A stretch of DNA of 47,294 nucleotides from a virus. Each line of letters starts with the position of its first letter. Position 1 is the first letter of the stretch. The translations under genes were made by a program, and so were the position numbers. The notes under the pieces were generated by a model. The model did no database searches and was not told the origin of the DNA. It saw only the letters and a list, made by a program, of their open reading frames with translations. Positions 3,708 through 45,189 of the stretch are shown here, piece after piece. The stretch lies in the IMG/VR virus record IMGVR_UViG_3300018476_000002, positions 1 to 47,294 of that record; one strand, written 5' to 3'.

Positions 3708-4100
3708 TCAGACGTCGACCCGTCGGGTGACCGAGCGGACGTGGTCGACGAGCCGCTTGAGACCGTCGGCGTGCTCCTCGATCGTGCGGGCGACGGTCGA
3801 GTCGTACATCTTGCCGGTGACGGCGGCCGGGTCGGCGGGCTCCTCGGAGGTGAGGATCGGCGCGAGCCGGTCGACGAGGACGGCGATGGCGACACTGAGC
3901 TCGCCGCGCTGGTAGTCGAGCGCGTCGAGCGCCGAGACGACGCCGGGCTGGGACGGCTGCGGGGTCGACGGCGCGAGGCTGCCGGTGTGGGGGCGTGCGG
4001 ACTGGTCCTGGCTCATGAGTATCTCCTGGGTGAAGGGGCAGGGCGCCTCTGGGGTCCAGAGGTAGCTCTCGTCGATGAAGGCGATCGTCCCTGCGGTCAT
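3708..4100 (-). CDS. Early protein at head of leftward operon; two possible starts
   Basis: 130 aa if translation begins at ATG 4100, 6 nt after the -10 box, which would make the message leaderless. A second in-frame ATG at 4016 has a strong AGGAG site and gives 102 aa (MSQDQSARPHTGSLAPSTPQ). Both may be used. The body is helical (ALDALDYQRGELSVAIAVLV, then ARTIEEHADGLKRLVDHVRS). No family is recognised. The 15-bp operator at 4099-4113 overlaps the first start codon, so a repressor bound there should block expression. Confidence 0.75.
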   Translation of the reverse strand: MTAGTIAFIDESYLWTPEAPCPFTQEILMSQDQSARPHTGSLAPSTPQPSQPGVVSALDALDYQRGELSVAIAVLVDRLAPILTSEEPADPAAVTGKMYDSTVARTIEEHADGLKRLVDHVRSVTRRVDV

Positions 4101-4135
4101 AGGCCAGTCCTATCATGCTCGATCCGGGTCCACAA
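4099..4135 (-). promoter_or_regulatory. Leftward early promoter with operator 5
   Basis: On the minus strand: TTGTGG (4135-4130), a 17-bp spacer, TAGGAC (4112-4107), then ATG at 4100. The inverted repeat ATAGG-CCAGT-CCTAT occupies 4099-4113 and covers both the -10 box and the first base pairs of the start codon. The same repeat recurs at four other promoters, so this is a likely repressor operator. The -10 box is weak; the operator match is perfect. Confidence 0.7.
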
Positions 4136-4194
4136 CCCTCCCGACCGAATAATTCCAATAATGGATCTTATCGGACATTCTTGCTCGCGCCCCC

Positions 4195-4232
4195 TTGACG
4201 AGGCGCGACCTGCGTGTATAGGTTCACGCTAT
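4195..4232 (+). promoter_or_regulatory. Rightward promoter with operator 4
   Basis: TTGACG (4195-4200), a 16-bp spacer, TATAGG (4217-4222), then ATG at 4231 with no Shine-Dalgarno, so the transcript is probably leaderless. The inverted repeat ATAGG-TTCAC-GCTAT lies at 4218-4232, overlapping the -10 box and the start codon. With the leftward promoter 60-100 bp away it forms a divergent, jointly repressible pair. The DNA between them is AT-rich for this genome. Confidence 0.72.
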
Positions 4233-4785
4233 GACCCAGCCCGAGACGCTCACCCAGCCCGAGAAGATCCGCCTCGCACACGCCATCGGCCACGTGAGCG
4301 ACGAGCCCGACTTCGACCACGGCACCTTCCTCCGGAAGGTCGCCGACGAGGTCGAGTCGATCATCCGAGATCGCCGCGCCGCCGTCGAGGTCGAGCTCAC
4401 CGACGCCGAGAGACAGGCGCTCGCCGACGCCGCTGTCATCCACCTCGGTGACGAGGTCGACGTGGGTGACATCTGCGACGTCGTGGCGGAGATCCTCAAG
4501 GAACGCCGCCTGGACCAGCCCGCGATCCACGTCCACGACCTCCAGCTCCCACCCGGCGGCGACGTCCGCGTCACCTACTGGCCGAAGACCCACGCCGAGG
4601 CCGTCGCCATCGTCCGCGACATCGACGGCGCCTGGACCACGGACCGCACCAGTGAGACCCTCGAGGCCATGAGGTGCGCACACGACGGCGTCGGCATCAC
4701 CATCTACCTATCCGTGCCCCGCAAGGAGCCCGAGGTCCGCACGCCGGCCGCCACCGCCATCCTCGCCGAGGCCCACGGTGCCTGA
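4231..4785 (+). CDS. Hypothetical protein, first gene of rightward 4.2-kb unit
   Basis: 184 aa, starting MTQPETLTQPEKIRLAHAIG. The N-terminal half is helical and acidic (FLRKVADEVESIIRDRRAAV). The C-terminal half alternates strands and helices (GDVRVTYWPKTHAEAVAIVR). No catalytic motif is evident. The start is set by the promoter: the ATG is 8 nt after the -10 box and lacks a ribosome site, so it is read as leaderless. Under operator 4 it should be silent in a lysogen. Function unknown. Confidence 0.75.
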   Translation: MTQPETLTQPEKIRLAHAIGHVSDEPDFDHGTFLRKVADEVESIIRDRRAAVEVELTDAERQALADAAVIHLGDEVDVGDICDVVAEILKERRLDQPAIHVHDLQLPPGGDVRVTYWPKTHAEAVAIVRDIDGAWTTDRTSETLEAMRCAHDGVGITIYLSVPRKEPEVRTPAATAILAEAHGA

Positions 4786-5083
4786 GCCATCGCCCGAGAG
4801 GGCTCGGAAGCGACCTGAGTCGTGGGAGGCGGTCGCGCGGGCGCTTGGTGACCGGTTGGAGTACCGAGCCGACAACTGCCCGGTCGGCTACTTCTCCAAC
4901 CAAGACAACCCCCGAGGCGTTGGCAGCTTCAACGGCGAGCCGGGTGAGCACCATGACCCCGACAAGGCTGCTGCCGAGTGTCCGTTCTGCGCCGACACAA
5001 TCGCCTATCGCCGGTTCGTCGCGCGCACCCGAGGTGAGCGCTACGAGCCGAGCGCTACGCCCGGAGAGGCGCGTGGCTCCTGA
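4778..5083 (+). CDS. Small protein with CPFC motif
   Basis: 101 aa from GTG at 4778, overlapping the upstream stop by 8 nt. Residues 33-36 (NCPVGYF) and the C-terminal CPFCADTIAYRRFVARTR form two Cys sites that might hold a zinc ion. Basic at both ends. Second gene of the three-gene rightward unit; its stop overlaps the next start (TGATG). No family is recognised. Confidence 0.7.
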   Translation: MPEPSPERARKRPESWEAVARALGDRLEYRADNCPVGYFSNQDNPRGVGSFNGEPGEHHDPDKAAAECPFCADTIAYRRFVARTRGERYEPSATPGEARGS

Positions 5084-5304
5084 TGGTCGCACCGCGCCGC
5101 AGGCGACGTCGACAGCGCCCGCTGTTCGACGAGCCATCTCGGCACGCGCAGGAGCAACTCTCCGGCATCCGCGCGACCGCTGACGGCGTCTGCTCGAAGC
5201 CCGGGTGCCCACAGGACGGCGTGGTCCTCCAGAATCAGCGGATCACGCGCTACAAGAACGGCTGGGCGCACGTGAGCTGCATGTCCGGCTGGGACGACGA
5301 GTAG
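5083..5304 (+). CDS. Small basic protein with zinc-ribbon-like Cys
   Basis: 73 aa. A strongly basic N-terminus (MVAPRRRRRRQRPLFDEPSR) precedes CSKPGCPQDGVV and a later WAHVSCMSGW. The three Cys and one His suggest a small zinc-ribbon nucleic-acid-binding domain. Last gene of the rightward unit; it ends 1 bp before the stop of the oppositely transcribed gene at 5306. Function unknown. Confidence 0.7.
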   Translation: MVAPRRRRRRQRPLFDEPSRHAQEQLSGIRATADGVCSKPGCPQDGVVLQNQRITRYKNGWAHVSCMSGWDDE

Positions 5305-5314
5305 CTCAGTCGTC
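5293..5314. terminator. Hairpin between converging transcripts
   Basis: GACGAC / GTCGTC arms with an inner GAG / CTC pair around TAG lie exactly where the rightward unit meets the end of the structural operon. It contains both stop codons. No U-run follows on either strand, so it is a plausible but unproven two-way terminator. Confidence 0.4.
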
Positions 5315-5497
5315 TTGGGGGACGAGAGCTACGAGGATGCCGCCCGTGAGCATCACGGCGGGGTTCACGAGGGCAGGGTCGAACAGCGGGCAGGGGATCG
5401 GCGCCGACCAGTCACCGCGGAACAGCTCGGGCTCACCCGGGTCGTCGAGGACGTCGCAGGGGATCGGTGGCGACCACTCACCGAGTGTCATGGTCAC
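5306..5497 (-). CDS. Small protein with internal repeat, last gene of structural operon
   Basis: 63 aa. Two similar units follow each other: WSPPIPCDVLDDPGEPELF and WSAPIPCPLFDPALVNP. A hydrophobic stretch (PAVMLTGGILVALV) ends the protein. GTG at 5497 overlaps the stop of the LamG gene (GTGA); ATG at 5491 is possible. Its place after the tail-tip adhesin genes suggests a small virion or tail-associated protein. Function unknown. Confidence 0.6.
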   Translation of the reverse strand: MTMTLGEWSPPIPCDVLDDPGEPELFRGDWSAPIPCPLFDPALVNPAVMLTGGILVALVPQDD

Positions 5498-6483: not shown

Positions 6484-6495
6484 GTGAGGCGTCTC

Positions 6496-28961: not shown

Positions 28962-28990
28962 ACCATAGCCCTACCCTATGCCCCGGTCAA
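28962..28990 (-). promoter_or_regulatory. Leftward structural-operon promoter with operator 3
   Basis: On the minus strand: TTGACC (28990-28985), a 17-bp spacer, TATGGT (28967-28962), the best sigma70-like promoter seen. The repeat ATAGG-GTAGG-GCTAT (28979-28965) fills the spacer and enters the -10 box, so a bound repressor would exclude RNA polymerase. The start point should be near 28955. Confidence 0.78.
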
Positions 28991-29516: not shown

Positions 29517-29546
29517 TTGCGCATCGTCATAGGGTGTGCCTATAGT
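29517..29546 (+). promoter_or_regulatory. Rightward promoter with operator 2
   Basis: TTGCGC (29517-29522), an 18-bp spacer, TATAGT (29541-29546), then ATG 6 bases later at 29553, so the transcript is probably leaderless. The perfect inverted repeat ATAGG-GTGTG-CCTAT (29529-29543) fills the spacer and overlaps the -10 box. Confidence 0.78.
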
Positions 29547-29552: not shown

Positions 29553-30002
29553 ATGGACACCGCATTCCGCCTCAGCATCCGCGACCGAGTCATCCACAAC
29601 GGCCGACCCGCCATCGTCGCCCGCTTCCCCATGAACGGACCCGCACGTGAGGTGGGTATCAACTACACCGACGATGCCGCGATCCGCCCCCGGTCGACGT
29701 ACGCCCCCATCGGCGACATCACCCCCGCTACCTACACCCTCACCGTCGCGCACGACAACGGCTCTGCTGTGTGGGTACGCAACTCCCTCGACGGCATCAC
29801 TAACGGTCGGTTCACCATCTACCGAGACACCGACGAGACCATGCGCGCCAACGGAGACCAGCTCCGTCGCTACCCGTGGTCACTGTGGGACTCGGGCTCT
29901 GGCGTCGCCGTCCACTACGGCCTCAACTTCCGCACCGTCGCCGACGCTAAGGCGCTCGTGACTGACGCCGTCGGTGTCCTCGCAACCAAGCTCCCCGCCT
30001 GA
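29553..30002 (+). CDS. Hypothetical protein, first rightward early gene
   Basis: 149 aa, starting MDTAFRLSIRDRVIHNGRPA. The start is fixed by the promoter and lacks a Shine-Dalgarno. The N-terminal half is beta-rich (YTLTVAHDNGSAVWVRNSLD), and the C-terminus helical (FRTVADAKALVTDAVGVLAT). No family is recognised. As the first gene behind a repressed promoter it is a good candidate for an immediate early takeover or anti-defence protein. Confidence 0.75.
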   Translation: MDTAFRLSIRDRVIHNGRPAIVARFPMNGPAREVGINYTDDAAIRPRSTYAPIGDITPATYTLTVAHDNGSAVWVRNSLDGITNGRFTIYRDTDETMRANGDQLRRYPWSLWDSGSGVAVHYGLNFRTVADAKALVTDAVGVLATKLPA

Positions 30003-30033
30003 CCCGTCAACCGATTCACAGGAGATGAACACC

Positions 30034-30609
30034 ATGACGACTATGACCCGCAAGCGCGCCGAGGAGATCCAAGCCGCACGTGAGGAGCTGCGCGCGATGC
30101 TCGCCCCCGGCGACGTCGTCACCGTTCTCAGTCGGCACGTGGCCCGGTCGGGCATGACGCGATGGCTCGACCTGTACGCAACCGTTGACGGCGAGCTGGT
30201 GAGGATCACCGAGCCCGCCGCAACCGCGATGGGTGACCGGACCTACTACCTGCGCAGCGAAGGCCTGTGGATGGTCAAGGCCGAGGGATGCGGCATGGAT
30301 ATGCACTTCGCCACGGTCTACAACCTCTCCCGCTCCCTGTGGCCCCATGGCTACATGTGCACCGGTGACAACGACGCCCCTCGGAAGCGGTGCGGGTCCA
30401 ACGACCACGCCAATGACTACGGGGCGTTCGCCCGTGAGTACGACGAGAGCCGCCGTCACGCGGCACTGTTGGCCGAGTGCGACCCCGCCGCCCGTGAGAG
30501 CTACGTCGCGGCACGTCAGGCGTACGTGTCCGGCAAGCTCGCGACGTCGTACGACCCGTCCCGCGTCCACTCGGACGGCGGGTACGCCCTCACCCACCGG
30601 ACCCTGTGA
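30034..30609 (+). CDS. Conserved phage protein with SGMxR / GCGMDM signature
   Basis: 191 aa; AGGAG is 9 nt before ATG 30034 and too close to the in-frame ATG at 30025. LAPGDVVTVLSRHVARSGMT, RWLDLYATVDGELVRITEPA, MVKAEGCGMDMHFATVYNLS and RSLWPHGYMCTGDN carry the signature shared by a family of phage and prophage proteins. CTG-CxxxCG type Cys (residues 117, 129) and a C-terminal GGYALTHRTL are also typical. I recognise the family but know of no assigned function. Confidence 0.75.
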   Translation: MTTMTRKRAEEIQAAREELRAMLAPGDVVTVLSRHVARSGMTRWLDLYATVDGELVRITEPAATAMGDRTYYLRSEGLWMVKAEGCGMDMHFATVYNLSRSLWPHGYMCTGDNDAPRKRCGSNDHANDYGAFAREYDESRRHAALLAECDPAARESYVAARQAYVSGKLATSYDPSRVHSDGGYALTHRTL

Positions 30610-30893
30610 TGTACGCCCACGTCACCACGTACCGGCTCGGAAACTCGGCCGAGACCTGGGCGGACATGGCTGAGGCGGAGACGTTTGACGGGGTGATCTC
30701 AGACCAGACGGCGCGCACCATCGCCTCGTGGTGGCAGGCGCCCGCACAGTCCGCCATCGTCGCCCTGTCTCACGGCCTGCCGTTTGACACTGACGAGCTG
30801 CGCGACGAGATCGGCCGGGGGATCATCGGTCCGCCCGACGCGGAGGCGTTGACCGCGTGGCTTGACGAGCTCGAAACCCTGCTCTCCGTGTGA
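30609..30893 (+). CDS. Hypothetical protein
   Basis: 94 aa from ATG 30609, sharing a base with the upstream stop (TGATG). MYAHVTTYRLGNSAETWADM, then ARTIASWWQAPAQSAIVALS and a C-terminal acidic helix (AEALTAWLDELETLLSV). No family. Coupled to the GCGMDM gene. Confidence 0.65.
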   Translation: MYAHVTTYRLGNSAETWADMAEAETFDGVISDQTARTIASWWQAPAQSAIVALSHGLPFDTDELRDEIGRGIIGPPDAEALTAWLDELETLLSV

Positions 30894-30896
30894 CCT

Positions 30897-30986
30897 CACG
30901 ATGGCCCGTACGCCCTCACGGGGTGCGGCCCGTCGCGGGACCATCCGGCGCCCGATTCACACCTCTAGCGGGAGATGAACCTGATG
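30897..30986 (+). repeat. Gene-start-associated repeat, copy A
   Basis: It shares most of its length with 31667-31752: CACGATGGCCCGTAC, GGGTGCGG, CCGTCGCGG, CCATCCGG and CCCGATTCACACCT occur in the same order, then a G-rich ribosome site and TGAAC. GATGG and CCCG pair with CGGG and CCATC, with a bulged A, so the RNA can fold just upstream of the next gene. A shorter relative (CCGATTCACAGGAGATGAAC) lies at 30011-30030. Confidence 0.7.
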
Positions 30987-31307
30987 TCCAACACCCGAAC
31001 CGTCATCGTCGCCGTGCTGCTGATGCTCGCAGCCTTCGCCGCCGGTGCCATCGCTGCACACCCCGACGTCGAGTCCGGCCCCGACATCGCGCACATGTCC
31101 GCGCCAACCCAGCGCCCTGACCTCGCGACCTGGCAGACCAGGCCGTGCAAGACGGAGGACAGCGTGAACTGCCGCTACATCTCCACCAACCCCGGCGGCC
31201 ACACGTTCTCCGTCCGACTCCTGCCGGGCCGTCAGCGGATGGTGTGCGTCTTCTACGCGGACCGTCGCTACGCGGCCTCTCACGACTACTGCGTTACCGC
31301 CCGGTGA
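30984..31307 (+). CDS. Small membrane-anchored or secreted protein
   Basis: 107 aa from ATG 30984; GGGAG is 9 nt upstream (ATG 30975 is too close). Residues 6-25 (VIVAVLLMLAAFAAGAIAAH) form a membrane anchor or signal peptide. The outer part has four Cys (PCKTEDSVNCRYISTNPG, RQRMVCVFYA, YC) that could form two disulfides. A cell-surface role, for example superinfection exclusion, is possible. No family recognised. Confidence 0.65.
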   Translation: MSNTRTVIVAVLLMLAAFAAGAIAAHPDVESGPDIAHMSAPTQRPDLATWQTRPCKTEDSVNCRYISTNPGGHTFSVRLLPGRQRMVCVFYADRRYAASHDYCVTAR

Positions 31308-31657
31308 TGGGCGCCGTCAAAAACGCCGTGGCCCGCGTCGTCGAGCACGCCCTACAGAGTGAGGGACGGGACTCGGTAGACGCGACGCTCGGCGTGTTGC
31401 AGGAGCTTCCGGTAGACCTCGCCGACGCCCTCACGGTTACCCGCCTTGCGGCCGTGATCGAAGCGTGGCTAGAGGACCAACCAAAGCCACCCGCGCCGGT
31501 GGATTGGCGCGCGGTCGCCGTGGCGGACCTAGCGGCCCTGGAGTTGGCGGACTGTGGATTCTGGGCGTGCGAGGGGCCGGACAACCCCCCGCGCGGCATG
31601 TCGACCTGTCACAGATGTTGGCGACTTGGCGAGCTCCGCGCGCTCCTCTCACCTTGA
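31307..31657 (+). CDS. Hypothetical protein with C-terminal Cys motif
   Basis: 116 aa, coupled to the upstream gene (TGATG). Helical N-terminus (MGAVKNAVARVVEHALQSEG; LTVTRLAAVIEAWLEDQPKP). Near the end FWACEGPDNPPRGMSTCHRC provides Cys-x(12)-CxxC, a possible zinc site. No family. Confidence 0.65.
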   Translation: MGAVKNAVARVVEHALQSEGRDSVDATLGVLQELPVDLADALTVTRLAAVIEAWLEDQPKPPAPVDWRAVAVADLAALELADCGFWACEGPDNPPRGMSTCHRCWRLGELRALLSP

Positions 31658-31666
31658 CCGATGCTT

Positions 31667-31752
31667 CACGATGGCCCGTACCCGATGAGGGGTGCGGGCC
31701 GTCGCGGTCCATCCGGCCCGATTCACACCTTCCGAGGAGCTGAACCCCGATG
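31667..31752 (+). repeat. Gene-start-associated repeat, copy B
   Basis: Second copy of the element at 30897-30986, ending in GAGGAGCTGAACCCCGATG, which supplies the ribosome site and start of the next gene. The hairpin is kept: GATGG pairs with CCATC, and CCG pairs with CGG, with one mismatch. Retained folding despite base changes suggests selection on RNA or DNA structure. Confidence 0.7.
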
Positions 31753-32328
31753 AGTGTCACGATCCGCGAAACCATCCACCACGGCGGCCACCACGCCGAA
31801 CGCGACGTTGAGCTAGAAGACCTGTCGCCCGCGAGCGTCGCGGCGATGCTGCGCGATGCTGACCCCGGCTACGTCAGGAACGCGACCGGCGACGTCGCTG
31901 CACAGCTCGCCACGCGAGGCGAGGCCGAGCGCGGTTGGGTTCGGTGGGTGATCGTTGACCCCGTCGAGGACGACAGCACCGGGCCGCGTTTCTGCGCGGA
32001 GTGCGGGACCAAGGAGGCGACAACGTACGTCGTCACGACTCTCGACCCCGACGACATCAAGGGCACCACGACAGAGGTGTGCCTGCCGTGCCACAACGCC
32101 GTGACTGACATCGTGCTGGCGACCATCTCCACGGGCTCCTACGTGTTCGCGGTGGTCGCCGCCACGGAGGAGGCCGCGGACACGGCTCTACGGGATCAGT
32201 GGGCCGTGCACGTCGCCCAGACGGGAGCCAACCCGGACATGATGGCCGAGGCGATCGAAGACGGTGACGTGAACTACTCGACCACGGTTCACGGCGCGGT
32301 CCTGCGGGATGGGTCGGTGTTCGCATGA
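31750..32328 (+). CDS. Zinc-ribbon-containing hypothetical protein
   Basis: 192 aa, ribosome site GAGGAG 11 nt upstream. Central FCAECGTKEATTYVVTTL and EVCLPCHNAVTDIVLATI give CxxC...CxxC, a zinc ribbon. The C-terminal half contains VFAVVAATEEAADTALRDQW. Function unknown. Its stop overlaps the methyltransferase start (ATGA). Confidence 0.7.
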   Translation: MSVTIRETIHHGGHHAERDVELEDLSPASVAAMLRDADPGYVRNATGDVAAQLATRGEAERGWVRWVIVDPVEDDSTGPRFCAECGTKEATTYVVTTLDPDDIKGTTTEVCLPCHNAVTDIVLATISTGSYVFAVVAATEEAADTALRDQWAVHVAQTGANPDMMAEAIEDGDVNYSTTVHGAVLRDGSVFA

Positions 32329-33542
32329 TCGGCGGCGTGCGCGACCTGTTCGCAGGTCCGGGCGGCTGGGATGAGGGCCTGCGGCGACTCGTCGGAGCCG
32401 CCGACGTCGTCGGGCTGGAGAACGACCCCGCGGCGTGCGCGACCGCGGAGGCCAACGGCCACCGCCGCGCGTGCGTCGACATCGCAGCGGCTGACCCGCT
32501 CGACTACGGGCGGCCAGGGGAACTTGCAGGCGTGATCGCGTCGCCGCCGTGCCCCGGTTTCTCGGGTGCTGGCAGTGGTCTCGGGCGGAAGGATCTCCCG
32601 ATGCTCGCGGCGGCGATTCAAGAGATGGCGTACGGCGCTGACCCTGACGTCGTGCTATCGGAGGTGCGGGCGAAGCAGCACGATCCGCGCTCGGCGCTGA
32701 CGCTGGAGCCGTTGCGTTGGATCATGGCCCTGTCGCCCGAGTGGTTCGCCCTCGAACAGGTGCCCGCCGTGCTCCCGCTGTGGGTGGCCTACGTTCCCGC
32801 GCTCGAGGCGCTGGGATACGACGTCTGGGCGGGCTACGTGACCGCCGAGCGGTTCGGGGTCGCACAGACCCGCAAACGGGCCGTAGCGCGCGGCTCACGA
32901 CGCCTCAGAGGCATCGGGGAACCCGTGGCGGTCGCGTCACGGTTCCACTCACGTTCGCCGGAGCGACTCGACCCCGACATGCCGCGCTGGGTGTCGATGG
33001 CCGAAGCTCTCGGGCACGGCATGGTTCGCGAGCTGGACGCCGGACGTTGGCGGCAGAGGTCGAACTACTCGACGGGCTCCAGCGATGGCCGGACCGCCGA
33101 GGAGCGCGGGCGCACGACGCGTGACCTTGACCAGCCGTCAACGACGATCACCAGCAAGGGTTTCCAGTGGGAGGAAGTCCCCGACGCCATGGGCGACGTT
33201 GCCAGCTCGCGCGGGTGCGTCCGCGATATCGACCAGCCCGCGCCCACCGTCCACTTTGGCGCGCGGATGAATCAGGTTGACTGGACCGATGAGGAGACGG
33301 CCCGCCTGCCACGCACGGGGGCGACGCCGGACGAGCGCGCGGAGATCGCGCGGAAGTCGACGCGCGTCACGGTGCAGGAAGCTGCCGTGCTCCAGTCGTT
33401 CCCCGCCGCCTACCTCTGGACGGGGACCAAGTCCGAGCAGTATCAACAGGTCGGTAACGCGGTCCCGCCGTTGCTCGGCGCGCACATCCTCGCGCCCCTC
33501 ATCGGAGTGGACGCACCCGAGCTGACCCGAGGGCCGTGGTGA
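32325..33542 (+). CDS. DNA (cytosine-5) methyltransferase
   Basis: 405 aa. Motif I is DLFAGPGGW (7-15). Motif IV is SPPCPGFSG with catalytic Cys76. The ENV motif is replaced by EQV (144-146). Motif VIII is QTRKR (181-185). Motif X is QQVGNAVPPLLG near the C-terminus, preceded by QEAAVLQSFPAAYLW. All catalytic blocks are present in order. No restriction endonuclease partner lies nearby, so this is probably a stand-alone enzyme that protects phage DNA. Target sequence is unknown. Confidence 0.92.
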   Translation: MIGGVRDLFAGPGGWDEGLRRLVGAADVVGLENDPAACATAEANGHRRACVDIAAADPLDYGRPGELAGVIASPPCPGFSGAGSGLGRKDLPMLAAAIQEMAYGADPDVVLSEVRAKQHDPRSALTLEPLRWIMALSPEWFALEQVPAVLPLWVAYVPALEALGYDVWAGYVTAERFGVAQTRKRAVARGSRRLRGIGEPVAVASRFHSRSPERLDPDMPRWVSMAEALGHGMVRELDAGRWRQRSNYSTGSSDGRTAEERGRTTRDLDQPSTTITSKGFQWEEVPDAMGDVASSRGCVRDIDQPAPTVHFGARMNQVDWTDEETARLPRTGATPDERAEIARKSTRVTVQEAAVLQSFPAAYLWTGTKSEQYQQVGNAVPPLLGAHILAPLIGVDAPELTRGPW

Positions 33543-33544
33543 CC

Positions 33545-33652
33545 ATGGACCAGCACACCGACTCACCGCACCGACCGACCATCGGCGGCCTGGGCCGACG
33601 GCGTACGTCTCCCGCACCATCACCATCCACCTCCAGCCGGGGCGGTGCGTGA
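33545..33652 (+). CDS. Possible 35-aa ORF
   Basis: It starts MDQHTDSPHRPTIGGLGRRR two bases after the methyltransferase stop. Its stop overlaps the next ATG (TGATG). Pro/Ser/Thr-rich and likely disordered. No ribosome site is clear. It may only couple translation. Confidence 0.4.
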   Translation: MDQHTDSPHRPTIGGLGRRRTSPAPSPSTSSRGGA

Positions 33653-33894
33653 TGGCCGGCGGCAGCAAGCTCCGTCACCTCCGGTTCCACGACGAGCCGT
33701 GGGAGGCGTTCTGCGCCAGCCTCCCGCCGGGGAAGTCACCCACGGCCCGGCTCGAGGAGCTCATGGCCGCGGACGTCGCGCAGCCGCCGCAGACAGTCAA
33801 GCCCACGCGTCCCACGTCGGCAGGGCTGAACCGGACATCGGCCCGCGATCCCTACGACCCGGAAGGCTTCCCGCGGCGGCCATGCGGGTCGTAG
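33652..33894 (+). CDS. Small basic protein, possibly ribbon-helix-helix-like
   Basis: 80 aa. KLRHLRFHDEPWEAFCASLP, then GKSPTARLEELMAADVA, has the strand-helix-helix pattern of small ribbon-helix-helix DNA-binding proteins. The C-terminus is Pro-rich and disordered (PTRPTSAGLNRTSARDPYDP). The first copy of a T-rich 17-bp repeat begins at its stop codon. Confidence 0.55.
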   Translation: MAGGSKLRHLRFHDEPWEAFCASLPPGKSPTARLEELMAADVAQPPQTVKPTRPTSAGLNRTSARDPYDPEGFPRRPCGS

Positions 33895-33910
33895 GTGAGA
33901 GGTTTTTTTC
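33895..33910 (+). repeat. T-rich repeat family, copy 1
   Basis: GTGAGAGGTTTTTTTC directly after a stop codon; it matches copies at 33949 and 34979 with one extra T. Seven Ts in a row are exceptional in this GC-rich genome. Confidence 0.7.
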
Positions 33911-33948
33911 CGTTCTAAGTGCACCCACCAGATCTACCCCCCGATGAA

Positions 33949-33965
33949 GTGAGAGGTTTTTTCTC
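33949..33965 (+). repeat. T-rich repeat family, copy 2
   Basis: GTGAGAGGTTTTTTCTC immediately before ATG 33966. Its GAGAGG can act as ribosome site, 8 nt from the start. The same 17 bases occur at 34979-34995 inside a coding gene on the other strand. Confidence 0.75.
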
Positions 33966-34292
33966 ATGCCGAACAAGCGGGCTCACGTGCTGACGAAGGT
34001 CTCGAAGCCGGGCGCCTTCGAGCCCCGCTTCGACGTGTCCGGCCACCCCGACGTGCAGGTGCGTGGCATCCCGTCGGAGACCAGCAAGAAGATGCAGCTC
34101 TGGACGCTCGTCGACAACAGCGTCCTCGACTACTGGGGCATCCCGCCCCGGTCGAGCTCCGGCAAGAAGTGGGTGCTCAAGGCCACCGAGTCGCTCACCG
34201 ATCTCCGCGACTGGATGGACGAGTTCCTGCCGCCGACCGCACCCGAGACCCGAGAGGCATTGCCATGCCCGGACCCACCGCCAGCTCCATGA
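33966..34292 (+). CDS. Hypothetical protein
   Basis: 108 aa, starting MPNKRAHVLTKVSKPGAFEP. Mixed alpha/beta with VRGIPSETSKKMQLWTLVDN and a C-terminal helix (ESLTDLRDWMDEFL). No family. It ends 28 bases inside the next gene. Confidence 0.7.
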   Translation: MPNKRAHVLTKVSKPGAFEPRFDVSGHPDVQVRGIPSETSKKMQLWTLVDNSVLDYWGIPPRSSSGKKWVLKATESLTDLRDWMDEFLPPTAPETREALPCPDPPPAP

Positions 34293-35526: not shown

Positions 35527-35823
35527 TCATCTCCTCTTGAGGGCTTTCTTGATGCGGCGCTTGATCGCCGCATCGTTGGTGGTGTAGTCGCGGTCGCGGT
35601 CAGGGTGGTCGGCGAGGAAGTCCTGGTAGGCATCTCGTGTCTTCTTGTTCACGTCCTTCCGGTGGCCGAGGTGGATCGCCCCACAGGGGCACGGGTAGGG
35701 CCACGTGTGGCCGTCACCCTTCCCGTCGCGCTCGAGGGACTGGAGGTGGCGGAACGCCGCCGACATCGACCAGTGGGCCGTCTTCTCCGGGTGGGGGCAG
35801 TGCTGCCGGGTTGGGCGGCTCAT
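35527..35823 (-). CDS. Small basic protein
   Basis: 98 aa, starting MSRPTRQHCPHPEKTAHWSM; ATGA overlap with the upstream glycosyltransferase. YPCPCGAIHLGHRKDVN gives a zinc-like CxCG...H site, followed by a basic helix (AIKRRIKKALKRR). Possibly nucleic-acid-binding. Confidence 0.65.
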   Translation of the reverse strand: MSRPTRQHCPHPEKTAHWSMSAAFRHLQSLERDGKGDGHTWPYPCPCGAIHLGHRKDVNKKTRDAYQDFLADHPDRDRDYTTNDAAIKRRIKKALKRR

Positions 35824-36578
35824 GGTCGCCCCTCCGGCCACCTCACCCGCTCGAGCTCGTCGGCGGTGCCGGCACGGCGGTACTCGGCCCACAGGTCACG
35901 GTTCGCCCGGTAGCCGGCGTCTCGTGACCTACGGAGGTCCGCGGCGGGCCTCTCGTGGTCGAGGTGGTAGACGGGGCCCGGGATGCGCTCGTAGCCGCCC
36001 CTGGCGCGCTCGCACATGCGGTGGAACGCGCGGTCCTCGAAGCCCCACCCGACGAACCTCTCGTCGAAGCCGCCGACCTTGTCCCACAGGGCGGTGGGCA
36101 CCACGAGCATCGACGACACCGAGCCCCGGACCACGGCCCGGGGACGGAGGTAGCTGCCGCGTCGTACGCGCTTCTCGTTGATCGGCTCACCGGCCAGGAA
36201 ACCCGTACGTTCATGGGTCTCGACGTTGAGCCACCGGTCGTGCGCGACGGTGAGGCGACCGGTGACCCTGGCGGTGCGAATGGCGCGGGCGAGCTGGTCC
36301 TCGCCGACCATGGAGTCGGCATCGGCGACGATCACCACGTCCACGTCGCGACCGAACACGCTCCACGCGTAGGCGTCGTTGAGAGCGGCGGACCGGTTGA
36401 AGGGTCCGGTCGGCCCTTCGGCGGACACGAGCAGATGCCAGCCAGCCCACATCGCCTTCTCGACGAGCGCCCAGTTCTCCTCCCTGGCGCCACCGTCGGT
36501 ACGCCAGGGGACCAGCACAGGGGTGGACCACATGGCGGTCGTGAGTGCGGCGGCGACCCCGTACTCCCCGATGCTCAC
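35820..36578 (-). CDS. Glycosyltransferase 2 (GT2/galactosyltransferase-like)
   Basis: 252 aa from GTG 36578, GGGAG 6 nt upstream. VVIVADADSMVGEDQLARAI supplies the DxD motif (ADADS). SMLVVPTALWDKVGGFDERF then VGWGFEDRAFHRMCERA is the 'GGFDExFxGWGxEDxxF' acceptor block of GT2/GT7 C-terminal transferases. The pair of motifs makes this the best supported of the three. It moves a sugar from a nucleotide donor to an unknown acceptor. Confidence 0.88.
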   Translation of the reverse strand: MSIGEYGVAAALTTAMWSTPVLVPWRTDGGAREENWALVEKAMWAGWHLLVSAEGPTGPFNRSAALNDAYAWSVFGRDVDVVIVADADSMVGEDQLARAIRTARVTGRLTVAHDRWLNVETHERTGFLAGEPINEKRVRRGSYLRPRAVVRGSVSSMLVVPTALWDKVGGFDERFVGWGFEDRAFHRMCERARGGYERIPGPVYHLDHERPAADLRRSRDAGYRANRDLWAEYRRAGTADELERVRWPEGRP

Positions 36579-38250: not shown

Positions 38251-38991
38251 TCAGTACCCCTTGGAGTGAGTGCCGCGGGTGGTGCCAACGTGTTGGGTGA
38301 ACGCACCGTGGCGCCCACCGGGGACCGGCATCCACGCGAACCGGTAGTCGCGGGCGACGAGCGTGTTGCCCATGACGGTCTCGGTCCACTTCCCGTCGGG
38401 CCAGTCGATGTCGAAGACCGCCTTATTGAGCAGCGACGGGTTGCACGTGAAGCCCGCGTCGTGGGACCGGTAGGTGTGCGGCCAGTCGTGCCAGACCCAC
38501 GTGGTGTGCGCGCGGCCGGCGGCCTTGCGGTCGCCGTCGACGCGCTGCTGCTGGGCATCCATGACCCCGCGGGCCAACTCGACCGGGTACCACGGCCGCC
38601 GGAGGAGCGCAACCTGTGCGAGCCGCTTGTTGGCGTCGAGGATGTCGTGGAGCCAGGAGATCTCGAACCGCTCCACGAAGACGAAGTCCTCCTCGAGCAG
38701 GAAGACCCTGGAGTCCAGTTCGCGACCGAGCTCCCACACCCGCTGCATCGCGCGGGTGTAGCCCGCCGGGTGGTCGTCGACGGCGTGGACGGTGAGGCGG
38801 TCGCCGAACTTCGCCAGGAGCAGCGCGCGCCACGCCGGGTCGCCGGAGTCGTCGACGACGTGGACGTCGGGTGCCCACGAGTCGCTGGTGTGCTCGCCGA
38901 TCGACAAGACGGCCTGCGGGAGGTACTCGCCCTTCCGGTTCGACAGGATGATGAGCGGGGTGGTGTCGACGACGTCGACTGCGGTGGTCAT
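38251..38991 (-). CDS. Glycosyltransferase 3 (GT-A-like)
   Basis: 246 aa, starting MTTAVDVVDTTPLIILSNRK. VHVVDDSGDPAWRALLLAKF is the first nucleotide-binding unit. RVFLLEEDFVFVERFEISWL contains the acidic EED that replaces DxD. VALLRRPWYPVELARGVMDA and TYRSHDAGFTCNPSLLNKAV follow the order of phage GT-A transferases. ATGA overlap with its neighbour. Donor and acceptor are unknown. Confidence 0.78.
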   Translation of the reverse strand: MTTAVDVVDTTPLIILSNRKGEYLPQAVLSIGEHTSDSWAPDVHVVDDSGDPAWRALLLAKFGDRLTVHAVDDHPAGYTRAMQRVWELGRELDSRVFLLEEDFVFVERFEISWLHDILDANKRLAQVALLRRPWYPVELARGVMDAQQQRVDGDRKAAGRAHTTWVWHDWPHTYRSHDAGFTCNPSLLNKAVFDIDWPDGKWTETVMGNTLVARDYRFAWMPVPGGRHGAFTQHVGTTRGTHSKGY

Positions 38992-40267: not shown

Positions 40268-40468
40268 TTACTCCCCGGCGTCGGCGAGGTACCGGTCGAC
40301 ACGCTCGTCGGCCGGATCGTGCTTGGTGCTGATCGGCTCACAAAGACGGCAGAGACCGATGGTGCCGCCGTGGATGCAGGTCCGAGCTCGGGCGTGAGCG
40401 CGAGCCGTCTGGAGCAGAGCGCGGGCCTCAGCGATGCGGTGGCGCGCCTCGGGCGAGTGGCCGGCCAT
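40268..40468 (-). CDS. Small protein with HxC..CxxC motif
   Basis: 66 aa, GAGAGGAG 6 nt before ATG 40468. MAGHSPEARHRIAEARALLQ forms a helix, followed by ARARTCIHGGTIGLCRLCEP, a compact zinc-binding-like site. First gene after the presumed origin. Function unknown. Confidence 0.7.
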   Translation of the reverse strand: MAGHSPEARHRIAEARALLQTARAHARARTCIHGGTIGLCRLCEPISTKHDPADERVDRYLADAGE

Positions 40469-40524
40469 GACGTGCTCCTCTCTGCGGGTGCGGTCTGTGG
40501 TTGAGCTACAAGCGCGATCCGGTC

Positions 40525-40555
40525 GGGGCAAGGGGTAAGGGGTAAGGGGTAAGGG
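40525..40555 (+). repeat. G-run tandem repeat, possible G-quadruplex
   Basis: Five G-runs separated by three-base loops: GGGG-CAA-GGGG-TAA-GGGG-TAA-GGGG-TAA-GGG. The heptamer AAGGGGT is repeated in tandem. The G-rich strand is the template for leftward transcription. It meets the usual quadruplex rule (four or more runs of at least three G, loops 1-7). Confidence 0.85.
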
Positions 40556-40692
40556 AGTTCAACTTCAATCGCTCGTGCAATCGAAGTCCCATCGCTCATT
40601 GCTTGACCGATCGAACATGGATTCGAGTCTGATTGTATCCCGGATTGCATGATGTATTCCATCGCCTATTCAATCCCCTCGGCTGTGGATAA
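40556..40692. other. Candidate replication origin
   Basis: An AT-rich stretch for this genome with repeated short units (TCAATCGCTC, GCAATCGAAG, CCCATCGCTC, CTGATTGTAT, CGGATTGCAT, TCCATCGCCT, TTCAATCCCC) and, at 40684-40692, TGTGGATAA, a perfect match to the DnaA box TTATCCACA. It overlaps the end of the initiator-like gene and adjoins the G-run repeat. No direct proof of origin activity. Confidence 0.5.
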
Positions 40693-41167
40693 CGGCTTGC
40701 TTCGCCATGACTCGACGCCACAGCTCCGGGTTCTTCTCCTCGATCCCGACGAAGCCAGCGAGCCCCGGCTCGTCGAGTTGGAGCCGGGCGAGCTCGACCA
40801 CGATGGCCTCGACCAGCTCGAGCGACGTGACGCGTCCGATCGCGTCGACACACGCCTTGCCCATGTTGCGGCGGATCAGGACGTTGTCGTGGCGGATGAA
40901 CGTGCGCAGGAGCACCTCGGAGGTCTCGGTGTCGAAGACCACGAAGCGCGCGTCGATCAGCGTGCTCACGGCCCCGTAGACGGCGTCCTCGTCGGTGTCG
41001 GCCGCCAGCTTCGCGAGCCGGTTCGGCCACCAGTCGAGCACGCCGGCCCACGTGAGCGTCGGCTGCGAGCCGAGCACGAGGTACATGCGCTGCGCAGCCC
41101 CTGGGAGCTTGCGGAAGTCGTCGTTGGCCCAGATGCTCGTCTTGAGCCGGAAGTGGTCACGTGCCAT
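40670..41167 (-). CDS. Replication initiator-like winged-helix protein
   Basis: 165 aa, starting MARDHFRLKTSIWANDDFRK. LPGAAQRMYLVLGSQPTLTW, AGVLDWWPNRLAKLAADTDE and AVYGAVSTLIDARFVVFDTE form a winged-helix domain like that of phage O-type and DnaD-like initiators. The C-terminus is helical. The gene ends in the candidate origin and lies downstream of the recT-like genes, a common layout. It could load the host helicase; no helicase or polymerase gene is found in the phage. Confidence 0.6.
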   Translation of the reverse strand: MARDHFRLKTSIWANDDFRKLPGAAQRMYLVLGSQPTLTWAGVLDWWPNRLAKLAADTDEDAVYGAVSTLIDARFVVFDTETSEVLLRTFIRHDNVLIRRNMGKACVDAIGRVTSLELVEAIVVELARLQLDEPGLAGFVGIEEKNPELWRRVMAKQAVIHSRGD

Positions 41168-41345
41168 CGGTCGGCGCCCCCTCTCGCGTGCCGGCGGGTG
41201 TCTGCATCTTCTTGAGCCACGTCGCTCGGACCGTGGTCCCCATCGTCGGGTGGCCGGTGCGGTCGGTGTGGCCCTGGGCGAGCGACGCCTTGGCGTTCTC
41301 GGTGCTGCCAGCGACACACGTCAGGCAGTACCACCAGCTCAGCAC
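41157..41345 (-). CDS. Small protein with CLTC motif
   Basis: 62 aa from GTG 41345 with GGAG 7 nt upstream, overlapping the upstream stop by 7 nt. MLSWWYCLTCVAGSTENAKA is the N-terminus; a later TTVRATWLKKMQTPAG is basic. One CxxC only. No family. Confidence 0.6.
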   Translation of the reverse strand: MLSWWYCLTCVAGSTENAKASLAQGHTDRTGHPTMGTTVRATWLKKMQTPAGTREGAPTDGT

Positions 41346-41662
41346 GCGACGCTCCGAGGTGTCGCGGAGTACGGGGCGCGCGGGTGGGCGACGGAGTCCT
41401 CGCGGCGCTGGCGTTCCCCGAGGGTCTCCCCGAAGCGTGCGACCTCGTTTCTGCGGAGCGCCTCCCACAGGTCGGAGCGACCAGCGTTACCGAGGCGCTT
41501 GCTGACGGACTGAGCCCGTACACCGAGGCGACGTGCGACGTCCTCCGTGGACTCCCCGGTGTGCGCCATCCACTCGACGTCTTCGACGAACGCGTCACGC
41601 ACACGGGCCTGTCGCTCAGCTTCGATGCGGCGCTTCCGTTCGAGCAGCGTCTCGTGACCCAT
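41339..41662 (-). CDS. Helix-turn-helix DNA-binding protein
   Basis: 107 aa; GAGG 8 nt before ATG. MGHETLLERKRRIEAERQAR is basic and helical. VEDVEWMAHTGESTEDVARR then LGVRAQSVSKRLGNAGRSDL is a clear helix-turn-helix of the kind found in small actinophage replication-region proteins. The C-terminus is basic and disordered. May act with the initiator gene that follows. Confidence 0.75.
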   Translation of the reverse strand: MGHETLLERKRRIEAERQARVRDAFVEDVEWMAHTGESTEDVARRLGVRAQSVSKRLGNAGRSDLWEALRRNEVARFGETLGERQRREDSVAHPRAPYSATPRSVAC

Positions 41663-41665
41663 GGC

Positions 41666-42637
41666 TCATGCCTCGGGGTCGTCAGTCGGCTCGGGCTCGA
41701 TGCGGAGCTCCTCCAGCACCAAGTCGAGCTCGTCGCTGGAGAGCCCGGCAGCGACAGCCGGGTCCATGGGGATCTCGCGGCCGATGATGGTGCGGATGCG
41801 GTTGCGCCGCGAGACGTTGGCCGGGTACTTGAGCCTCTTGAACTCCTCGGCGATGGCGTGGTACCTGGGGTCGACGGCCAGGGCGGCGCCGAGGTCACCG
41901 GCGTCCTCGTCGGGCTCCTCGGTTTGCTTCACGACCTGCCCCTCGACGATCGTGGCGCCGGCCGGGTTGTCGGCCTGCCCCATCTCCTCGTCGGTGTAGA
42001 TCCCGGACAGGTCGAGCGGGAACGCCTTGCGCAGCGCTAGGGCCTCGGCGCACTTCGCGAGCTGTCCGGCGCCGCGCGTCTTCCACGTGCCGGTCAGGAC
42101 GATGTCGTCGTTTTGCTTGCGCTTCGTCTGGGCGTACTCGACGAACAGGGCGACCGCGGAGAACCGCTTCCCGTCGCGGAGGACCGTGACCTTCGCGGCC
42201 GACGGCGACGAGGTGGCGTCGAGCCACACGTCGCGCCAGACGCCATCCTGGCCGCACCACTGGGCGTCCTCGTACTCGAGGGTCGCACCGGCCTTGTCGG
42301 CGGCCCGACGTGCGATCACCCGGTAGCCGTCGATGCCGGTCTGGATCGTCGACTTATAGACGTCCTGCCACTCGCCGTTGACGAGCCCGCGGTCCTTGCG
42401 GGCCACGAGGTAGATCTGACGGGAGAACGGGTCGAGTTGGGACCGCTTCGCGACGTGCAGGAAGATGTCGAGCTCGGCCTGGGTGGCGTCCTCGGAGACG
42501 CCCATGGCGTGCAGACCGGAGATCTGCGCTGGGGTCCATGACGTCTGCTCGTCGACGATTACGAGCTCGGCGTGGGTGGGCTCCTCGACCGTCTCGATCA
42601 CCGGCTGGTCCGGTGCCTTCTCCTTGGCTCTGGGCAT
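41666..42637 (-). CDS. RecT/Bet-family single-strand annealing protein
   Basis: 323 aa. LDIFLHVAKRSQLDPFSRQI, YLVARKDRGL, STIQTGIDGYRVIARR and LTGTWKTRGAGQLAKCAEAL then ALRKAFPLDLSGIYTDEEM are the family signatures. A Glu/Asp-rich C-terminal region includes EEFKRLKYPANVSRRNRIRT. It anneals complementary ssDNA and usually works with the exonuclease encoded just upstream. AGGAT upstream of ATG is modest. Confidence 0.92.
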   Translation of the reverse strand: MPRAKEKAPDQPVIETVEEPTHAELVIVDEQTSWTPAQISGLHAMGVSEDATQAELDIFLHVAKRSQLDPFSRQIYLVARKDRGLVNGEWQDVYKSTIQTGIDGYRVIARRAADKAGATLEYEDAQWCGQDGVWRDVWLDATSSPSAAKVTVLRDGKRFSAVALFVEYAQTKRKQNDDIVLTGTWKTRGAGQLAKCAEALALRKAFPLDLSGIYTDEEMGQADNPAGATIVEGQVVKQTEEPDEDAGDLGAALAVDPRYHAIAEEFKRLKYPANVSRRNRIRTIIGREIPMDPAVAAGLSSDELDLVLEELRIEPEPTDDPEA

Positions 42638-42638
42638 G

Positions 42639-42893
42639 TCAGATCCTCTCTGTGACTGCGATCTGGGCGTACTGGAGGTCGGGGTTGGGGTGGACCTCGA
42701 GACCCATGAGCTTCGGGAATGGCGCGGCGTACACGAAGATCGGGCCGTCGGGGCAGAGGCGCTCGAACATGGCCGGGGAGACCTGAATGACGCCAGGCCG
42801 CTTGAACTCGAGCAGCAGCGAGTCACGCGCCCGATGCACGGACGCCCGGATCTCGTCGAGCGCGCGGTGCTGCTCGCGCGTGATCCCCTCCAT
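42639..42893 (-). CDS. Small hypothetical protein between exonuclease and RecT genes
   Basis: 84 aa from ATG 42893 (TGATG overlap). MEGITREQHRALDEIRASVH is helical; GVIQVSPAMFERLCPDGPIF and VYAAPFPKLMGLEVHPNPDL contain strands. Coupled to both recombination genes, so it may assist them. No family. Confidence 0.65.
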   Translation of the reverse strand: MEGITREQHRALDEIRASVHRARDSLLLEFKRPGVIQVSPAMFERLCPDGPIFVYAAPFPKLMGLEVHPNPDLQYAQIAVTERI

Positions 42894-43756
42894 CACGTGA
42901 CCGACTTCTCAAAGAAGTGATAGTCGGGGATCTCGACCTGGGCGTAGGTGTCGGGCTGGATATAGCCCGGCCAGACGTCGGCCTCCTTGCAGTCGCGGAG
43001 AATCTCGAGCCCCTGGGTGTACCGCTTGCGTCCGAGCTTGATGGATCGGGCGCCGAGCTGGATCACGGACACTGGGTAGGGCGGGTTCTTCTCGATCACG
43101 ACGAACGCGAACGCCTTGGCCGGGTGGCCCAACGCGCGGAGTACGTCGAGGTAGTAAGGCGCTTGTATGAAGTAGCCGTACTCGGCGGCCCGCTTCTTGA
43201 AGACGTCAGGGTCGGCGGACTCGGCAGTCTTCACGTCCCCGAGCACCTGGGGGTGGAGCCAGTCGACCCGGACCCGGCGGCGCTGCCCGGTGACCTGGTG
43301 CTCGAGGTAGCCAGTGACCTCCGGCTTGCCCTCGGTGAGGATCTCCATGGCGAAGGCGTGCCGCTGGAGCGACTCGGCCATCGCCTCGGCCTTGTCGATC
43401 TCCTTGCGCAGCAGGGGAATGTTGCCGGCGGCGCGGATCTCGGCGGCGTGCGCGCGTGTCGAAGGCGACCGCATGTCCTCGGCCTCACCGAGGTCGGCCT
43501 TCGTCTTCGGGTCGAACCGGTGCGGCACCTCCGGGTGGGAGCCGACGCCGAGGATCAGGGTGTGCGCGACGTGGCCGAGGTCGTAGGTGTCCTTCGGCGG
43601 CGGCGGGTGCGTCAGACCCCAGTGGTAGAGCGCCGGAGCCGTGAGCAGCGTCTTGATACCGGTCTGGGAGATCGACTCGACGTCAGCGTGGTACGCGGCC
43701 TCGGCGATGTCGTCGTAGAGCCCGTCGACAGTGGGGATCTCAGTCATGGGTGGCAT
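42893..43756 (-). CDS. RecE-like PD-(D/E)xK exonuclease
   Basis: 287 aa, GAGGAG 7 nt before ATG. SQTGIKTLLTAPALYHWGLT and LGHVAHTLILGVGSHPEVPH match RecE-type N-terminal blocks. RRRVRVDWLHPQVLGDVKTA gives Asp165 and Asp174-x-Lys176, the metal-binding core, followed by EYGYFIQAPYYLDVLRALG (Gln198). Paired with RecT this makes a complete phage recombination system: it resects dsDNA ends so that RecT can anneal them. Confidence 0.88.
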   Translation of the reverse strand: MPPMTEIPTVDGLYDDIAEAAYHADVESISQTGIKTLLTAPALYHWGLTHPPPPKDTYDLGHVAHTLILGVGSHPEVPHRFDPKTKADLGEAEDMRSPSTRAHAAEIRAAGNIPLLRKEIDKAEAMAESLQRHAFAMEILTEGKPEVTGYLEHQVTGQRRRVRVDWLHPQVLGDVKTAESADPDVFKKRAAEYGYFIQAPYYLDVLRALGHPAKAFAFVVIEKNPPYPVSVIQLGARSIKLGRKRYTQGLEILRDCKEADVWPGYIQPDTYAQVEIPDYHFFEKSVT

Positions 43757-44354
43757 CGGGCTTCTCCTCGACCGGGGTGATGGTGAACGACACCTCGAAG
43801 CGGTCGTCTGGGCTGGGGTACTGGACCTCACCGAACGTGACATCACGGTGGGTGCCGTCGGGGTGGTGCAGGCGGACGACCTTCCCGGCAAGCTCCTCGG
43901 GGTCGAGGAGGGCGGGCGTGGCCTCAACGTGCGCGTCGTACGGGAACCTCGGCATCGCGACTGGCCTCAGCATGAGGTCGGCCGACATGTTGCGCAGCCG
44001 CTCGAGACCCTCGATCAGCGAGGCCGCGGTGGGCGCCTCGTAGTCGGTGGGCCATGCGACGGTGACGGGCTGGGTGAGTGCGCCGTTGATGATGGCCTCG
44101 AGCTCCTCGTCGTCACCCGGCAACACGGTGTCGGCAACGCGCGGGCAGTGCTCGCGGCAGTGCCGGCCGGGGCACTCGCGGGGGCCTGTGGCGTCCTCCA
44201 CGATGAGGTCGATCTGGGTGGACACGCTGCGCGCCGTCCTGCTCGCTTTCCCGACGCTGACGCGGGCTGGGGCGGCGGGGAATACGGACCCATTTGGACG
44301 GTCGAGGACCATGGCCGCCATGTCGCAGAGCATGGTCTCCCACGCGACCGCCAT
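43740..44354 (-). CDS. Hypothetical protein with CxxxC cluster
   Basis: 204 aa; GGAGG 5 nt before ATG 44354. MAVAWETMLCDMAAMVLDRP is helical. RECPGRHCREHCPRVADTVL is a metal-binding-like cluster. The second half is beta-rich (RFEVSFTITPVEEKPDATHD). It overlaps the exonuclease gene by 17 nt, so it may be a recombination accessory. No family recognised. Confidence 0.65.
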   Translation of the reverse strand: MAVAWETMLCDMAAMVLDRPNGSVFPAAPARVSVGKASRTARSVSTQIDLIVEDATGPRECPGRHCREHCPRVADTVLPGDDEELEAIINGALTQPVTVAWPTDYEAPTAASLIEGLERLRNMSADLMLRPVAMPRFPYDAHVEATPALLDPEELAGKVVRLHHPDGTHRDVTFGEVQYPSPDDRFEVSFTITPVEEKPDATHD

Positions 44355-44647
44355 CACAACCTCCGAATGCCGGGGTGGATCCGCGGGCCAGGGCAGCGGC
44401 GCCGACGGGCCAGCGGCGAGTAGGGCTGCTCGCACACGACACAGTCGACGACCTGACCGATAATGTCGGTCGCGGCCGGCCACCCCTCCTCGGCGTCGAC
44501 GTCGGGGTCGGTGGCGACCTTGTCGAAGTGGTTGAGGAAGTCGTCGCCGATCGTCCTGATGGTGGTGATCGCCCACAGGTGCTCGTTCGACTTGATGGCG
44601 TAGACGACCTTGGGGTTGAGCTCCGGCTCCGGGGTCTGGTCGCTCAT
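44354..44647 (-). CDS. Small hypothetical protein with CxxC and Arg-rich end
   Basis: 97 aa, starting MSDQTPEPELNPKVVYAIKS (ATGA overlap). WAITTIRTIGDDFLNHFDKV, then DCVVCEQPYSPLARRRRCPG gives CxxC plus a third Cys in a basic context. Possibly nucleic-acid-binding. Function unknown. Confidence 0.65.
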   Translation of the reverse strand: MSDQTPEPELNPKVVYAIKSNEHLWAITTIRTIGDDFLNHFDKVATDPDVDAEEGWPAATDIIGQVVDCVVCEQPYSPLARRRRCPGPRIHPGIRRL

Positions 44648-44763
44648 CGCTTGCCCCGGTGGTGCTTGATGGCGTCGCCGAGCAGGACGACGACCACGCT
44701 GATGCCGAAGGCGATCAGGATGAGGCCGACCATCCACATGCCGTCGGCGGTTCGCTGGCTCAT
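44644..44763 (-). CDS. 39-aa single-span membrane protein
   Basis: MSQRTADGMWMVGLILIAFG and SVVVVLLGDAIKHHRGKR; residues 9-28 form one membrane helix with a basic C-terminus. The stop overlaps the next start (ATGA). GTG 44784 would add seven residues. First gene after the tandem hairpins below the repressor. Might act at the membrane early in infection; unknown. Confidence 0.65.
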   Translation of the reverse strand: MSQRTADGMWMVGLILIAFGISVVVVLLGDAIKHHRGKR

Positions 44764-44822
44764 TGCAGAGGTGGTGTGATCCACGGTGATACCCTGCCCT
44801 CGTCTGGTTGTTTGCTCCTGCT

Positions 44823-44854
44823 GGGGCCGTCCTTCTCGTCGGGGGGACGGCCCC
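44823..44854. terminator. 10-bp perfect hairpin downstream of repressor gene
   Basis: GGGGCCGTCC / GGACGGCCCC with a 12-base loop. A T-containing stretch (TTGGTGTTT) follows on the + strand, none on the minus strand. It would separate the repressor transcript from the recombination genes. Confidence 0.6.
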
Positions 44855-44865
44855 TTGGTGTTTCA

Positions 44866-44916
44866 CCTGTGGCCCGAGGTTTGAGGCTTCCCCTTCCTCG
44901 CCTCCCGGACCACAGG
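44866..44916. terminator. Second hairpin downstream of repressor gene
   Basis: Outer CCTGTGG / CCACAGG and inner CGAGG / CCTCG arms, beginning 6 bases after the repressor stop. Together with the hairpin at 44823 it makes a tandem terminator-like element. Confidence 0.5.
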
Positions 44917-44922
44917 AGCCTG

Positions 44923-45153
44923 TCAGCCGGTCAGCTTCGTGACCGTGGTGTCGAGCTTCTCGGCGACCTTGGTGAGCTCGCCGATGCGGAACGCGACGCG
45001 TCCCTCGAGCCGCTGGTGGACCTGCGGCTGGGAGATGCCGAGGAGCTGACCGATCGCCTCCTGGCTGACGCCCTCGGTGCCCATGCGCGCACGGACGCGC
45101 CGGCCGATGCGGACGTTCTCGGCGTCGAGGATGGCCTCGGTGTCGCTGCTCAT
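44923..45153 (-). CDS. Xre-family regulator, candidate immunity repressor
   Basis: 76 aa. RVRARMGTEGVSQEAIGQLL and GISQPQVHQRLEGRVAFRIG form a standard HTH_3 (lambda repressor-type) domain with recognition helix SQPQVHQRLEG; the last 15 residues (ELTKVAEKLDTTVTKL) complete the bundle. There is no separate dimer domain or LexA-like peptidase. ATG 45153 has no ribosome site and lies 7 nt after a -10 box, so it is probably leaderless. Operator 1 overlaps its promoter, implying autoregulation. The same operator marks four lytic promoters. Confidence 0.75.
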   Translation of the reverse strand: MSSDTEAILDAENVRIGRRVRARMGTEGVSQEAIGQLLGISQPQVHQRLEGRVAFRIGELTKVAEKLDTTVTKLTG

Positions 45154-45157
45154 GGGG

Positions 45158-45189
45158 ATAGGTCTACCCTATATCCGCGCGGCGTGCAA
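45158..45189 (-). promoter_or_regulatory. Repressor-gene promoter with operator 1
   Basis: On the minus strand: TTGCAC (45189-45184), a 17-bp spacer, TAGACC (45166-45161), then TATCCCC and ATG 45153. The perfect inverted repeat ATAGG-GTAGA-CCTAT (45172-45158) covers the -10 box. The promoter lies in the 3' end of the upstream gene and could be active in lysogens. Confidence 0.7.

Follow-up and report, generated by a model that had tools for sequence, protein, structure and literature searches.

The repressor gp33 of the mycobacteriophage BPs binds palindromic sites in five regulatory regions and controls four promoters, and its operator OR is located between the -35 and -10 boxes of the early lytic promoter (PMC4557955). 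This is the closest functional precedent for the system described here, which also has palindromic sites at several regulatory regions across one genome. In BPs the core reads CGACATATGTCG and the half-sites are paired, whereas our dyad is ATAG-N7-CTAT, and the BPs binder is an integration-dependent Rep encoded beside int, whereas the candidate binder here is Cro-like and no Rep was seen. The stoperators of L5 and cluster A and the repressor sites of phiC31 are likewise served by one repressor with sites dispersed over the phage genome. These L5-type and phiC31 systems have 18–30 dispersed sites (PMC4557955), against five in our genome, which are near-identical and spread over the genome at promoters. 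Sites of the L5 type lack symmetry, being 13-mers to which a monomer binds, and many lie inside operons, where they block elongation, whereas those described here are symmetric and lie at the heads of transcription units.

Butters (a cluster N phage) and Meyran (a Gordonia phage) encode homologous small XRE proteins, the Cro/'excise' proteins gp39 and gp35, with 29–40% identity to the XRE protein of our genome. In both phages the cro homolog is the first gene of the early operon, as is our XRE gene, and in Butters RecE/RecT follow, again as here. The immunity repressor of both is encoded divergently from cro, however, whereas none is found beside our XRE gene. The Butters cro palindrome (AATTTCTCtgtGAGAAATT) is also unlike our dyad.

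The DNA analysed, referred to as the window, is the entire virus record IMGVR_UViG_3300018476_000002 (47,294 bases). It carries a 123-base terminal direct repeat (1–123 = 47172–47294) and, judged by this terminal redundancy, is apparently a complete genome. Since it encodes an integrase (PF00589, 3e-16; phrog_1, 1e-35) and RecE/RecT-like proteins together with a terminase large subunit, portal, major head protein and tape measure, its gene content is that of a temperate tailed phage of the siphophage type. No phage record matched it at the megablast level, and its terminase shares no more than 42% identity with those of Gordonia phages. 400-genome scans within the Mycolicibacterium palauense phylum turned up no close prophage or host. 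The only relative found with the operator set is IMGVR_UViG_3300020122_000137 (47,592 bases), referred to as G001, whose DNA, in the blocks that align, has 68–95% identity to the window.

The initial annotation of the window reported the inverted repeat ATAGS-N5-SCTAT at five positions. All five were confirmed, and there is no other exact match in the window:

4099–4113, minus strand: operator ATAGGCCAGTCCTAT, heading the unit from 4016 to int; weak promoter boxes; identical to G001 27287
4218–4232, plus strand: operator ATAGGTTCACGCTAT, over the -10 box of TTGACG-18-TAGGTT, with an ATG at 4231; one mismatch to G001 27168
28965–28979, minus strand: operator ATAGCCCTACCCTAT, over the spacer and -10 box of TTGACC-17-TATGGT, heading the structural-gene unit
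29529–29543, plus strand: operator ATAGGGTGTGCCTAT, over the spacer and -10 box of TTGCGC-18-TATAGT, before a probably leaderless gene at 29553
45158–45172, minus strand: operator ATAGGTCTACCCTAT, with the XRE start codon 4 bp downstream; identical in G001

The annotation's estimate of well under one chance match was borne out, with 0.00 matches expected and none in 100 dinucleotide shuffles. Allowing up to two mismatches adds three near-sites in the window as compared to 12 ± 3 in shuffled sequence, and there is thus no tail of near-sites, let alone many equally good matches, inside genes. As a guard against post hoc bias, all perfect dyads whose arms are 4 or 5 bases long and whose gaps span 0–14 bases were counted in an unbiased census. 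ATAG-N7-CTAT came out at the top (5 seen, 0.009 expected), with an uncorrected p of 4e-13 over 3840 tests (4-mer half-sites × gaps 0–14). The window contains 42 ATAG/CTAT words in total, 10 of them inside the five sites. The full operator is a 23-bp dyad, GGTCATAGS-N5-SCTATGACC, with half-sites of 8 bp. Four of the five sites are intergenic, while the one at 45158 shares bases with a small gene's stop codon.

Gene calls made with a simple codon-bias gene caller divide the window genes into five blocks with one site at the head of each, which upholds the proposal that the sites head transcription units and the XRE gene:

4016 leftward, past the ends of the contig, as far as the integrase and 45164, minus strand: leftward unit, headed by the 4099 site
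4231–5304, plus strand: short rightward unit, headed by the 4218 site
5306–28731, minus strand: structural unit with TerL, portal, capsid and tape measure, headed by the 28965 site
29553–34292, plus strand: rightward unit including a C5 DNA methylase (32325–33542), headed by the 29529 site
45153 leftward to 34461, minus strand: XRE unit including RecE, RecT and a replication initiator, headed by the 45158 site

Nearly all window genes belong to these units, the one clear exception being an HNH gene (29167–29496). The early unit also encodes an HD-domain protein (PF13023, 39221–40234) and has glycosyltransferase-like genes at 38251–38991 and 35820–36578. An AT-richer gap at 40460–40690 (GC 0.55) contains tandem GGGGTAA/TTACCCC units at 40532, repeats that are missing from G001; lying beside a replication-initiator homolog (40670–41167), this gap is a candidate replication origin.

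The annotation further held that all five sites overlap promoter boxes. Compared with a control in which the 15-bp motif was kept and the flanks were randomised, this stood for 4218, 28965 and 29529 (p 0.001–0.009), where the operator covers the -10 box of the pairs given above. It did not stand for 4099 (p 0.26) and 45158 (p 0.42), where the -35/-10 pair does not rise above the control. The -10 box does not have a fixed place in the dyad, as some sites have it in the left arm and others in the right.

The XRE gene and the features around it are as follows:

46244–47062, minus strand: tyrosine integrase, 272 aa (PF00589, phrog_1)
44923–45153, minus strand: XRE/Cro-like DNA-binding protein, 76 aa, the presumed binder (PF13560, phrog_4583)
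44790–44922, minus strand: strongly structured gap after XRE with a 10-bp GC stem (z -2.83), near-identical in G001 and a possible terminator or attenuator ahead of the early genes
41666–44784, minus strand: early operon after XRE, with RecE (42893–43747) and RecT (41666–42637)

The 76-aa protein belongs to the XRE family by its matches to HTH_31 (PF13560, 30.1 bits, cut-off 27) and HTH_3 (PF01381, 25.1 bits, cut-off 23). Its AlphaFold2 model (pLDDT 93.9) has the five-helix XRE fold, with SQPQVHQRLEG as the recognition helix, and the best Foldseek fold matches of this model are C.AhdI, C.BclI, ClgR and lambda CI, with P22 C2 also found. Among named phages the best matches are Butters gp39, Redi gp39 and Meyran gp35. 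In a small comparison set the protein is closer to Cro than to Rep (phmmer, Butters gp39 3e-12, Meyran gp35 7e-11), and no Rep protein of the phages in this same small set was reported at E 10. XRE opens the early operon to which RecE/RecT belong, and the gene order is int-...-cro-...-recE-recT, so that by descent and gene order it is Cro-like. No divergent immunity repressor adjoins it at 45153–46244, and it was therefore filed as Cro-like and not as a member of a cluster N-like switch. Near int, where BPs has attP inside its repressor gene, no tRNA-type attP or rep gene was recognised.

XRE is the only window regulator named as such by Pfam or PHROGs, and these recognised no second repressor among the conserved genes. 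Another gene, 41339–41662, is 95% conserved in G001 and matches the DNA-binding phrog_11615. Upstream of XRE, gene 45164–45514 encodes a 116-aa protein that is 94% conserved in G001, and it ends inside the XRE operator. A winged-helix Xis was suspected from its sequence, the start of which is wing-like, but the model is too poor to use (pLDDT 55). Immediately after the integrase lies an N6/N4 DNA methylase-like gene (45696–46247), which is missing from G001.

G001 keeps all five sites together with the XRE gene, the product of which is 95% identical to that of the window, so the motif is not absent from the orthologous promoters of this relative. There are five exact ATAGS-N5-SCTAT matches in G001. 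Of the five window sites, 4099, 28965 and 45158 are identical there, 29529 differs in the spacer only, and the ortholog of 4218 has one mismatch (ATAGTGTGAACCTAT, record strand). ATAG-N7-CTAT is also first in the G001 dyad census (6 seen, 0.006 expected). A weight matrix built from either genome finds all sites of the other at 19–28 bits, with the next best match at ≤10.0. The 59-bp block at the 28965 promoter is an exception to the general divergence in being fully conserved, and this promoter-operator module is kept although the adjoining sequence has been replaced. Similarly, the 29529 promoter-operator is kept though the following gene has been replaced by a different one.

G001 has a sixth site at 37267 (L012 1267–1281), without a window counterpart, which covers the start of an unrelated, probably leaderless C5-methylase gene and carries TTGACG-17-TAGGGT. 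Its 23-bp dyad, GGTCATAG-GGTCACG-CTATGACC, is perfect, and because the following ATGACCCAGCCC is common to the 4218-type promoter, the site looks as if it were a copied regulatory cassette. The genes behind 4218, 29529 and G001 37267 are probably leaderless, since their ATG coincides with the expected point of transcription initiation. A reading of the dyad as an RNA element was rejected: there is no Rfam match, and where promoters are leaderless, transcription would probably begin downstream of the dyad.

The annotation had not recognised the operator from a described phage, and among the phages searched we likewise found no carrier of this operator and its Cro-type protein other than G001. 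A scan with the 23-bp dyad returned G001 plus single matches in contigs that differ in composition (GC 0.45–0.55), apparently mostly inside genes. RecT relatives lack the motif, save for one chance-level match, and no ATAG dyad occurs in those parts of Butters and Meyran that were examined. When IMG/VR was scanned for paired sites, 15 unrelated contigs were returned, some of which have similar dyads in clusters; no significant Cro homolog was found near these clusters. Eight unrelated virus contigs (L031, L032, L035, L036, L038, L040, L044 and L045) have 3–9 ATAGG-N5-CCTAT-like dyads within a few kb. As far as searched, the operator sequence thus seems private to the lineage of the window and G001, and the motif is carried by only two genomes, too few to reveal co-variation of XRE and motif. 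The dispersed-operator design is already known from other phages, while the operator sequence is, as far as searched, new.

We consider it probable, at roughly 0.68, that the five sites are the operators of one dispersed repressor regulon and are bound by an XRE dimer that occludes the promoters. A homodimer of the 76-aa protein would bind the 23-bp dyad, whose half-site centres are 11 bp apart, or about one helical turn, a distance that would fit two XRE recognition helices, and the symmetry of the dyad would likewise suit a dimer of a small XRE domain. That XRE binds the motif is suggested by position, fold and spacing. Because one dyad arm is itself the -10 hexamer (TATGGT, TATAGT, TAGGTT), bound XRE would keep RNA polymerase off the promoter. 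XRE would in this way repress jointly, in trans, its own gene with the RecE/RecT early operon, the structural operon, the integrase unit and the two rightward units. Autoregulation of XRE is likely, given the operator located 4 bp ahead of its start codon. We infer that XRE represses these units and that its physiological role is that of the phage's general, self-limiting repressor, which may also silence the prophage. The repressor regulon of the initial annotation is in line with the dispersed operator set and the copy before the XRE gene, but XRE is nearest to Cro/'excise' proteins. Counted against our reading are also the weakness of the promoters at 4099 and 45158, the occurrence of the motif in only two genomes, the different dyad at Cro homologs and the presence of other conserved DNA-binding proteins (41339–41662).

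The 'immunity system' of the annotation was not established, since the nearest relatives of XRE are the Cro/'excise' proteins of cluster N and Gordonia phages and not their immunity repressors. It is conceivable, at somewhat less than even odds, that XRE acts solely as a Cro-type lytic regulator and that a separate immunity repressor without a recognisable HTH family, encoded elsewhere in the genome, occupies these operators in the prophage. Cro kinship and gene position point this way, as do the divergent rep gene beside cro in L048/L049 and Butters and the many conserved small genes without a family; yet Pfam and PHROGs recognise no second repressor, and no divergent gene adjoins XRE. That XRE is itself the immunity repressor, in an autoregulated one-protein switch where the structured gap stops read-through into the early genes in the prophage, is a tentative proposal that falls a little short of an even chance. 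It would account for XRE being the sole recognised repressor-type gene, for operators on every unit and for the structured gap after the gene, but it sits poorly with relatives that are Cro and not Rep and with a gene that shares the early operon. Both proposals are sub-cases of the physiological role in the regulon reading, and confidence in them therefore overlaps with confidence in that reading. It is doubtful that the 76-aa Cro-type repressor is the sole transcriptional switch protein, limiting lytic expression and maintaining lysogeny by way of one operator on every transcription unit, structural genes included, and with no CI-type partner.

It is unlikely that the dyads are bound by some other protein of the phage or the host, or that they serve as activator sites. 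The 41339–41662 product would be a candidate binder, being 95% conserved with a match to a DNA-binding PHROG, but its gene lacks its own operator, and the overlap of site and -10 box is better explained by repression than by activation. It is very improbable that the motif is a mere promoter element made of symmetrical -10 boxes. Each arm is indeed -10-like (TATGAC, TATAGT), but the N7 spacing is fixed, the symmetry reaches 8-bp half-sites, the -10 box changes arm between sites, and promoters on the opposite strand are weak.

With 11 sites in two genomes, this is a compact and fully specified operator set from a phage lineage without described regulation, and it pairs a minimal XRE protein with a candidate operator in a form that is directly testable. 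The extra G001 operator before a methylase gene suggests how accessory genes get recruited into a phage regulon. If it is true that a single Cro-like protein also silences the prophage, this would be an unusually simple lysogeny switch.
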